Source of the DNA: Aliicoccus persicus
GTDB lineage: Bacteria > Bacillota > Bacilli > Staphylococcales > Salinicoccaceae
NCBI RefSeq assembly: GCF_900110815.1
Contig: NZ_FOIT01000001.1
Coordinates: 417,910 to 481,909, forward strand
Length of the DNA: 64,000 bases
Reading direction: 5' to 3'
Position 1 is the first letter of the stretch, and each line of letters starts with the position of its first letter. A program made the translations under genes and the position numbers. The notes under the pieces were generated by a model. The model was not told the origin of the DNA and made no database searches. It saw nothing but the letters and a program-made list of their open reading frames with translations. This document shows, piece by piece, positions 28,007 to 60,716 of this stretch.

Positions 28007-28155
28007 TTAAAACAAAAATAAACAGAATAGCAATCGTCTGCTACCCTGTTGATTACCCTCCAGGAATGCGTCCCAATGCCTTTCTTTTGCCTGAGAGATT
28101 CGCTTACGCTTGCTCCTTCGGCGACGATGACTCGTTCTCTCGAGCATTGTTCAAT
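28007..28155 (-). promoter_or_regulatory. Glycine riboswitch (single aptamer) with terminator platform
   Basis: On the minus strand the leader contains the glycine-aptamer core GCCGAAGGAGCAAGC followed by CTCTCAGGCAAAAG (about 28061-28150). Only one aptamer of this kind is present, not the usual tandem pair. Behind it, 28039-28049 pairs with 28022-28032 (11 bp, two G-U), followed by TTTATTTTTG, a transcription terminator. This is the layout of an ON switch in which glycine prevents termination, matching the catabolic gcv genes. Confidence 0.9.
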
Positions 28156-44652: not shown

Positions 44653-44679
44653 AAATATATGCAAGGAGCACTGATTGAT

Positions 44680-45795
44680 ATGACTCAGTTAACAAATAGA
44701 AAAGACACACGTCCAGTGCGTGTCGGAAATTTAGTAATCGGCGGAAATGAAGAGATCGTTATCCAAAGTATGACGACGACGAAAACGCATGATGTCGAAG
44801 CAACAGTTGCTGAGATTAATCGACTGGAAGAAGCAGGCTGTCAAATCGTACGTGTGGCATGTCCAAAAGAAGAAGATGCCTTAGCGATTCCAGAAATTAA
44901 AAAGCGCATCAACATTCCACTCGTAGTGGATATTCACTTTGACTATAAACTCGCACTGCTTGCAATTGAGGGCGGCGCAGATAAAATTAGAATTAATCCA
45001 GGTAACATCGGGCGACGCGAAAAAGTAGAAGCCGTTGTCAATGCGTGTAAAGAAAAAGGCATTCCAATTCGTATTGGTGTCAATGCCGGAAGTTTAGAAA
45101 AACATATCATTAAAAAATATGGATTCCCTACTGCAGATGGTATGGTTGAAAGTGCGATGCACCACATTAAAATCTTAGAAGAGTTAGACTTCCATGACAT
45201 CATCGTTTCGATGAAAGCGTCGGATGTCCATTTAGCAATCGAAGCATATACGAAGATTGCAGAACTGATCGACTATCCACTACATTTAGGAATTACAGAA
45301 AGTGGTACGCTGTTTGCCGGTACAGTTAAGAGTTCAGCAGGACTCGGCGCAATTTTATCTAAAGGTATCGGAAATACGATGCGTATCTCATTATCAGCAG
45401 ACCCGGTTGAAGAAGTTAAAGTCGGACGCGAACTATTAAAGACATTCGGACTTGCGAGCAACGCAGCAACATTGATTGCATGCCCTACATGTGGACGAAT
45501 TGAGATCGACTTAATTTCGATTGCGAATGAAGTCGAAGAATATATCGCAGATGTGAAAGCACCACTAAAAGTTGCAGTCTTAGGTTGTGCAGTTAACGGA
45601 CCAGGAGAAGCACGAGAAGCAGATATCGGTATCGCGGGTGCACGTGGTGAAGGATTACTCTTCATGCACGGTAAAACAGTTCGAAAAGTACCAGAAGAAA
45701 CAATGGTTGACGAACTGAAAATGGAAATCGACAAGCTTGCTGAAGAGCACTACAAGAAGTTAGAAGAAGAAAAAGAAGCGTTGGAAAATCAATAG
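44680..45795 (+). CDS. ispG: 4-hydroxy-3-methylbut-2-en-1-yl diphosphate synthase
   Basis: Iron-sulfur enzyme of the MEP pathway reducing MEcPP to HMBPP. It has 371 residues: an N-terminal TIM barrel with [10 protein letters not shown] and QSMTTTKT, and a C-terminal [4Fe-4S] domain with ACPTCGR near 268 and [12 protein letters not shown] near 305. The ATG at 44680 is preferred (AAGGAG 11 nt ahead); an in-frame ATG 21 nt upstream overlaps the ribosome site. A terminator follows. Confidence 0.94.
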
Positions 45796-45852: not shown

Positions 45853-45940
45853 TGTGAGATTATGTTTTGGGTCGCTACTTCAGAGTGATTTTCGAGCGTG
45901 ACATAGTGGTAATTAAAAATTCACATTCCTTTTCCAAGAG

Positions 45941-46183
45941 CTGCCAATTCACTAGACTTTTTAAAGTCGAATTGGCAGGAAAATGTAATAAGTGCCAATT
46001 CAGACTGTATTTTTATCTTGAATTGGCAGGCAAATCAAAAAGCTGCCAATTCAAATCCAATTTATGATCTGAATTGGCAGACAAGAATCAAGACGTGCTT
46101 ACTCTCTGCATTTTTTCTCCCTGAGTAAGCTCGAAACATAAAACCGTACTCACTCAACATAATTTTCGAGCTTGAGTAAGCAC
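45941..46183. repeat. Array of five 38-bp inverted-repeat units with a 51-bp period
   Basis: Units at 45941-45978, 45992-46029, 46043-46080, 46095-46132 and 46146-46183 each consist of a 10-bp arm, an 18-nt loop and the complementary arm. Spacers are 13-14 nt, A-rich. Units 1-3 use arms CTGCCAATTC / GAATTGGCAG; units 4-5 use GTGCTTACTC-like / GAGTAAGCAC-like arms. Loops differ. It fills the gap 45853-46204 between convergent genes. No gene is supported there. Confidence 0.9.
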
Positions 46184-46204
46184 GGCACACCATTTTTCAA
46201 ATAT

Positions 46205-46741
46205 TTACATCAACAAGTATCGAACTAATCCCAATATAGCGAAGCACAACAAGATGACACCATTACCTATTCCAGTAATCGTACTATTACCGACTTCAAA
46301 CTTCTTAGCAAGCCATGGTGAGATGACCGCTATGATTATCATGATTGCAGCTAATAAATATAAACTCGGATCTTCAAAGACATCAACTAGGAAGATAAAG
46401 TGGATGCCTACCAAGAGGCCAATCCACGGTGCAACGTAATCTCCCAATTTCTTTCGAATCAATATGAATGCAACAATCGCACCAATAATTAGTTGTGCAT
46501 AGAAAACAATCAGGTACATAGTAAATGCATCCATCTCTGACAAAGCTGAAGATTCACTCCAGTTCGTCACACTAAAATACACACCAACTGCACTGACTAT
46601 CAATGCGATTGCAGATCCGATTCCAAGATACTTTCGCCAGCTTTGTCTTGGATTTTCCTGTGCCCATCCAAACCAAACAAAACTGAGTATGCCGAAAATA
46701 GCTGCGTACATCACATAGTCTCTTATAAATTCTTGCTCCAT
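46205..46741 (-). CDS. Hypothetical multi-pass membrane protein
   Basis: A 178-residue protein with about six hydrophobic segments (residues about 9-26, 38-58, 75-97, 106-121, 125-142, 153-176) separated by short charged loops. No family recognised. GGGAG precedes the start; the ATG at 46741 is chosen, though a TTG one codon earlier is equally placed. It is flanked on both sides by the repeat arrays and stands alone. Normal codon use suggests a real gene. Confidence 0.65.
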   Translation of the reverse strand: MEQEFIRDYVMYAAIFGILSFVWFGWAQENPRQSWRKYLGIGSAIALIVSAVGVYFSVTNWSESSALSEMDAFTMYLIVFYAQLIIGAIVAFILIRKKLGDYVAPWIGLLVGIHFIFLVDVFEDPSLYLLAAIMIIIAVISPWLAKKFEVGNSTITGIGNGVILLCFAILGLVRYLLM

Positions 46742-46839
46742 CAATCATTCACTCCCTGTTTAAGATATACGTGAATGCTGAGTGAGACAATCCTTCAAAA
46801 TTCTTTACGATAAATAGCGAAACATTGCCGAGCGTGTTT

Positions 46840-47268
46840 CGTTGGCACAAAATCCAATTTGCATGTCCGTGAGTAAGTCTCATTGGCACGCAAACCAATC
46901 TGCGTGTCTATGAACAAGTCTCATTGGAACGCAAATCAATCTGCGTGTCAGTGAGTAAGTTTCATTGGAACGCAAATCAATCTGCGTGTCAGTGAGCAAC
47001 TCTCATTGGAACGCAAATCAATCTGCGTGTCTATGAACAAGTCTCATTGGAACGCAAATCAATCTGCGTGTCAGTGAGCAACTCTCATTGGAAAGCAAAT
47101 CAATCTGCGTGTCTATGAGCAACTCTCATTGGAAAGCAAATTAATCTGCGTGTCTATGAGCAACTCTCATTGGAACGCAAATCAATCTTCGTGTCTGTGA
47201 GTAAGTTTCATTGGCACGCAAACCAATCTGCACGCCAGTGAGCAACGCTCATTGGCACGCAAACCACA
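46840..47268. repeat. Tandem array of a 41-bp repeat, about 10.5 copies
   Basis: The anchor CATTGG (first copy CGTTGG) recurs at 46840, 46881, 46922, 46963, 47004, 47045, 47086, 47127, 47168, 47209 and 47250, exactly 41 bp each time. A typical unit is CATTGGAACGCA, AATCAATC, TGCGTGTCAGTG, then a 9-nt linker such as AGCAACTCT. The two 12-mers can pair (with G-U), so every unit folds as a hairpin. It fills the gap 46742-47318. It is not in frame (41 is not a multiple of 3) and has no variable spacers. Confidence 0.95.
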
Positions 47269-60512: not shown

Positions 60513-60554
60513 GTGTGAGTGGGTTGTTTAGTATGGGGTTTGATTTATGAAAAT

Positions 60555-60716
60555 GGATTTGACGGACTGTGAGATGAGCTCATGGACTCGCAAATGGGTT
60601 TGACGGACTATGAGATGAGCTCATGGACTCGCAAAAGGATTTGACGGACTGTGAGATGAGCTCACGGACTCGCAAATGGATTTGACGGACTGTGAGACTT
60701 GCTCATTGGCACGAAA
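60555..60716. repeat. Second 41-bp tandem repeat array, about 4 copies
   Basis: GACGGACT recurs at 60561, 60602, 60643 and 60684, exactly 41 bp apart. A unit reads GTGAGATGAGCTCATGGACT then CGCAAATGGATTTGACGGACT. It aligns without gaps to the 46840-47268 unit at about 24 of 41 positions. The right end changes to GCTCATTGGCACG, the same words that end the other array. It fills the gap 60513-60731 between convergent glyS and recO. Confidence 0.93.

Follow-up and report, generated by a model that had tools for sequence, protein, structure and literature searches.

REP/BIME elements, among them the GTAG and CGTC REPs, are extragenic palindromes that are present in tens to hundreds of copies per genome, clustered and mosaic, in the gaps between convergent and unidirectional genes (PMC3733652). 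Sub-families are told apart by complementary residues of the stem; CGTC REPs have loops of 4-5 and also occur without a dedicated transposase, and frequent G-T pairing has been reported for REPs as evidence of an RNA form (PMC3733652). Stem-loop sequence families are dispersed in low-GC Firmicutes, including Staphylococcus aureus (PMC2267715).

The array described here was found in the window, a stretch of 64,000 nucleotides of the Aliicoccus persicus genome. As first noted in a reading of the letters alone (the sequence-only reading), positions 45941-46183 hold five inverted-repeat units with 10-bp arms and a loop of 18 nt in all five. The spacers measure 13, 13, 14 and 13 nt, and the units start at 45941, 45992, 46043, 46095 and 46146, in steps of 51, 51, 52 and 51 bp. 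Ahead of them lies one more unit, decayed and of a third arm type, recovered as a pattern match at 3 mismatches (C8:463783-463816), and a gene converges on the array from either side. In the following list the strand of a unit is that with the A-rich loop (minus in unit 1), and R1 is a covariance model of the family.

44659-45795, plus strand: ispG-like gene (called from sequence), converging on the array
45872-45909, minus strand: decayed sixth unit, third arm type TCGCTACTTC; TCGCTACTTC AGAGTGATTTTCGAGCGT GACATAGTGG
45941-45978, minus strand: unit 1, CTGCCAATTC-18-GAATTGGCAG; R1 match 45928-45978 minus, E 7e-9
45992-46029, minus strand: unit 2, GTGCCAATTC-18-GAATTGGCAG; R1 match, E 1.9e-10
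46043-46080, minus strand: unit 3, CTGCCAATTC-18-GAATTGGCAG; R1 match, E 2.6e-10
46081-46094: junction spacer of 14 bp at the switch of arm type (start-to-start 52)
46095-46132, minus strand: unit 4, GTGCTTACTC-18-GAGTAAGCTC; R1 match, E 3.9e-9
46146-46183, minus strand: unit 5, GTACTCACTC-18-GAGTAAGCAC; R1 match, E 1.8e-10
46205-46744, minus strand: ORF of 179 aa, converging on the array, whose A-rich strand is sense to it
46836-47263 (also L010 1325-1610, L037 732-1050, L039 666-986): 41-bp tandem repeats, family CGTGTCNGTGAGCAAGTTTCATTGGAACGCAAATCAATCTG

A Pfam search with the 179-aa ORF gave no match. The 41-bp array had been placed immediately next to the five units; it is about 650 bp off, beyond this ORF. 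It belongs to a separate repeat family with copies at several loci, often neighbouring a 51-bp array, and each of its units contains an imperfect dyad, GTGAG..CTCAT. Another array of 41-bp repeats, at 60551-60697 of the window and just after a terminator, has a similar GTGAG..CTCAT layout but its own sequence (AAATGGATTTGACGGACTGTGAGATGAGCTCATGGACTCGC).

The five window units are one array of a genome-wide 51-bp inverted-repeat family. A search of the 2.06-Mb host genome (8 contigs) for the two arm patterns, with an 18-nt gap and at most 3 mismatches, returned 48 and 77 sites, and the reversed control patterns returned none (0 and 0); thus the window units are not a product of chance. The 10-18-10 geometry recurs at many other loci; its confinement to a single locus would have spoken against the sequence-only reading. 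Counting from the pattern searches and the stretches collected around their matches, there are approximately 160 units in about 27 or more host arrays; the R1 model, for which only 150 candidates were scored, returned 167 matches, a few of them perhaps counted on both strands. The family comprises about 160-170 units. Neighbouring units are spaced by exactly 51 bp in 105 of about 130 pairs and by 49, 50 or 52 bp in 11, and adjacent units are often identical. Exact 10-bp arms are far commoner in the array loci than in shuffled sequence and their commonest gap is 18 nt; other gaps (e.g. 13, 16) come from the spacer side of the 51-bp lattice and from arms extended inward. At the 5' ends of several host arrays, read on the A-rich strand, a sequence close to TTGNTGTGSC stands just before the first arm (window 46184-46196, L014, L015, L016, L020), a possible array end signal.

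Out of 27 host arrays, 13 lie between convergent, 13 between codirectional and 1 between divergent genes; window gaps of at least 80 bp comprise 5, 13 and 5, respectively. In the codirectional gaps the A-rich strand is the sense strand in 9 of 13. The flanking genes are ordinary (mgsA, thiF-like, folD, fabF-like, a clp-type ATPase, a class II tRNA synthetase and others). A recurring neighbour was considered as a source of the cognate protein and rejected: about 40 flanking proteins were scanned, all ordinary and unrelated, and none recurs. The sole array between divergent genes, L012 (C4:131392-131703), has two blocks whose A-rich strands run in opposite directions, one block pointing to the gene of a TetR-type regulator and the other to that of an acetyltransferase.

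Iteron and centromere arrays and the site sets of nucleoid proteins are helically phased direct or inverted half-sites. The arrays described here differ from all of these in that there are dozens of them, chromosomal and at gene ends, with no adjacent reader gene and with several arm types per lattice. They share regular repeats, partial dyads and variable interiors with CRISPR, but their arms vary, the counterparts of spacers have a common core and adjacent loops are often copies of one another; the scan of array neighbours found no cas genes. The nearest described class is REP/BIME. As in that class, the arrays are extragenic, multicopy, mosaic and mostly in convergent or unidirectional gaps. 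Broad-sense REP/BIME elements are further marked by the binding of gyrase, IHF or another architectural protein. In contrast to REP/BIME, they have 10-bp arms, an 18-bp gap, a near-strict 51-bp head-to-tail lattice and no Y1/RAYT gene, and the array arms are without frequent G-T pairing. Membership in the REP/RAYT group itself was rejected on two grounds. No GTAG/CGTC tag is evident at the stem foot, where unit consensus positions 39-42 read GGtT or GcAn and TTTC or AAAT precedes arm 1, and a search for the Y1 transposase (PF01797) found nothing in the host genome, with control genomes positive.

The arrays and the stem-loop families can both be folded as stem-loops; in a comparison by description, text searches found no tandem arrays among those families (PMC2267715). 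Among known RNA families (Rfam 15, gathering score), the only match was elsewhere in the window, a glycine riboswitch (RF00504, 64 bits, 28069-28154, minus strand). Intrinsic terminators were rejected as the array unit, given arms that are not GC-rich, the gap of 18 and the separate terminators beside many arrays. We found no description of a 51-bp inverted-repeat family in the literature outside subscription.

Host arms fall into the types CTGCCAATTC, CTGCTACTTC, TCGCTACTTC, TCGCTAACTC, GTGCTTACTC, GTGCTCACTC, GTGCTAACTC, GTGGTAACTC and GTGCCAACTC, each usually paired with a matching opposite arm. The two window types had been called unrelated, but intermediates such as GTGCCAACTC and GTGCTAACTC bridge them. 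The loops had been called unrelated as well, but all of them are centred on an A/T tract and follow a weak consensus, A-R-G-C-Y..AAAA..TG..GT. Based on position-matrix scoring, this A-tract core carries over between arm types (mostly P<=0.005). Within each array the A-rich strand is mostly on one side; the orientation rule uses this strand and may misorient a few arrays, affecting asymmetry counts.

The R1 search found the same family in 6 of 6 genomes of g2, another genus of the host's own family (7-62 matches per genome at E 0.01, some units counted on both strands) and hardly at all in genera g3-g6. A joint model (R2), run on 157 genomes of the order, added only G033, the single genome of family f2; no arrays were found in the approximately 150 other genomes of the order that were searched, those of families f3 and f4 included. 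A pattern scan of named genomes gave 8 isolated single hits, about the chance level. In g2, arms are of the form CTGCTYAYTC, or CTGCTCACTT in G006 and G018, and neighbour spacing is exactly 51 bp in 65 of 69 cases. Irregular spacing in relatives, which would have spoken against the sequence-only reading, was not seen: across g2 species, orthologous arrays differ in unit number, loops and spacers and yet stay on the lattice. The G033 array shows an independent switch of arm type: five units of the CGTTTAGAT type come first and three CTGCTCACCT units after them, each of them 10-18-10 and on a step near 51 bp. A terminator precedes this array, and the gene beyond it is convergent. The CGTTTAGAT type is also present in five g2 genomes (25, 13, 3, 2 and 1 sites); beyond these and G033 only single two-mismatch sites occur, close to the control level. 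It has G3, T5 and A7 in common with the first type, and judged by these positions the two may be related by descent.

Orthologues of ispG were identified in all 33 family genomes searched. The relatives' ispG loci examined have no array of the 51-bp family and a different neighbouring gene, with some loci reversed and not all 32 read downstream of ispG. Near ispG in genus g6, where the 51-bp family is lacking, there are tandem repeats of 42 bp whose arms are inverted (CACAGTGACG..CGTCATTGTG); they may be a class of arrays analogous to it.

L122 2949-3047 (G005): 42-bp repeats downstream of ispG
L127 2950-3066 (G025): 42-bp repeats downstream of ispG

The proposal that structure is preserved independently of sequence holds for the geometry, which stays constant as the arms change, at many loci and in two genera as well as a second family. 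For arm pairing it is not supported. Across arm types the arms covary strongly (100 double-changed cells, compared with 37 after shuffling), whereas within types stem-pair covariation is absent or negative. In the RTGCTYACTC type the arms are independent at position 6 (TT14 TC11 CT10 CC13, P=0.27) and anti-correlated at position 1; in CTGCTYAYTC they are independent at positions 6 and 8 (P=0.95 and 0.58). Type 2 arms are independent at positions 2 and 6, vary in opposite ways at position 9 (43 of 61 unlike) and are anti-correlated at position 1 too. The exception is position 10 in g2, which is associated between arms (P<0.001) and reflects the CTGCTCACTT sub-type. G-U pairs are about equally frequent on one strand and the other (55:59, 63:46, 28:42). 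Independent or opposite variation within types, together with the even G-U counts, points to inverted DNA half-sites and argues against selection for hairpins.

Hybrid units, with half-sites of two types, lead to the same view. At L139, nine units on one lattice run from type 1 through a hybrid to type 2; the hybrid units at L139 position 492 and L145 position 594 are in register, and that of L145 is in the other direction. These non-complementary hybrids sit on the lattice, and arm pairing does not appear to be what is conserved. On this comparative evidence the arrays look like rows of paired double-stranded DNA half-sites and not like RNA hairpins.

The explanation we favor, tentatively and at somewhat less than an even chance, is a lattice of half-sites for a putative DNA-binding protein, with a role in nucleoid architecture or as a supercoiling boundary. 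The 51-bp unit would be two inverted 10-bp half-sites around an 18-bp A-tract core, followed by a 13-bp spacer, and a protein acting as a dimer or oligomer, or several related proteins that differ in specificity, would recognise the half-sites as double-stranded DNA. Protein contacts would account for the 28/23-bp alternation and for a repeat of 51 bp, or about five turns, aligning the proteins on one face. Arrays between convergent genes and downstream of genes would then be nucleoid-architecture or supercoiling-boundary sites, as proposed for BIMEs. Tandem duplication lengthens and shortens the arrays, and in the past composite arrays were copied from locus to locus.

We infer the reader protein, the one-face phasing and the function of the arrays from this layout. 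The phasing fits 51 bp as 5 turns of 10.2 bp, but at 10.5 bp per turn each step of 51 bp adds a drift of about 50 degrees. Off-lattice spacings (70-71, 82 and 91-92 bp) are suggestive of helical phase, with few independent cases and partly homologous linkers. A test of AA/TT periodicity was weak, as the column shuffle breaks tracts. Intrinsic curvature did not exceed that of shuffles in a wedge model, in which a phased A-tract control bent as expected. Also counter to the lattice explanation, the neighbouring genes offer no recurring candidate for the binding protein, both arms mostly switch type together, with strong covariation across types, as pairing or palindrome correction would also give, and most genomes of the order manage without arrays.

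Possible, although rather doubtful, is that the arrays are REP-like selfish or neutral DNA with no cellular role, spread by a lost or unknown mobiliser and by replication slippage, with template-switch palindrome correction keeping the arms alike. Spacers at 52-bp junctions are alike at unlinked loci (L009, L014 and L020; L019 and L028; more loosely the window), and linkers of 33 nt and 53 nt recur (L012, L016, L021); thus, composite arrays have been copied between loci as blocks. The identity of adjacent units, the patchy distribution, the array-free ispG loci examined in relatives and insertion only at permissive intergenic sites would also be expected of such DNA. However, the 18-bp gap, the 51-bp step and the loop core are held across genera and families, an excess of constraint for neutral repeats, and palindrome correction should erase the asymmetric and hybrid units that are both seen. 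No Y1/RAYT transposase accompanies the arrays, and carriage by mobile elements was rejected, as viral contigs were free of arrays and the phage and plasmid collections held no similar DNA.

Decidedly unlikely is that the arrays act as RNA, in the form of tandem 3' UTR hairpins that shield the ends of transcripts, serve as RNase III substrates or terminate convergent transcription. Hairpins of around -14 kcal/mol are predicted on either strand, and the covariation across types, the location 3' of genes and the A-rich strand bias in codirectional gaps agree with such a role. Against it, the arms show neither a G-U strand bias nor covariation within types, non-complementary hybrid units persist, separate intrinsic terminators often adjoin the arrays and Rfam has no match there. 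That several paralogous proteins each recognise an arm type of their own, with arrays of different type doing different jobs (e.g. a centromere-like or recombination system with diversified specificity) is highly unlikely, since the discrete types with a common core and geometry, the recurrence of block order and junctions among loci and the second, more distant type on the 51-bp lattice of g2 and f2 are offset by the lack of a candidate protein family and by the mixed lattices and hybrid units, which suggest one tolerant reader.

An extended form of the half-site lattice, which we consider unlikely, is a chromosomal address system in some Staphylococcales: dozens of phased inverted-half-site lattices around a common core, with specificity that can be swapped while the lattice is unchanged, and one or more co-evolving putative DNA-binding readers that would organise the nucleoid at gene ends. 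If true, such a system would be previously undescribed in Staphylococcales. Extragenic palindromes are usually taken as RNA hairpins or transposase substrates. The arrays allow one arm to be tested against the other in several genomes, and the distance is kept almost to the base but the pairing apparently is not. The arrays are therefore a clean test of the protein-binding-lattice idea in organisms without REP transposases, and the natural arm-swap variants provide a handle for finding the reader.
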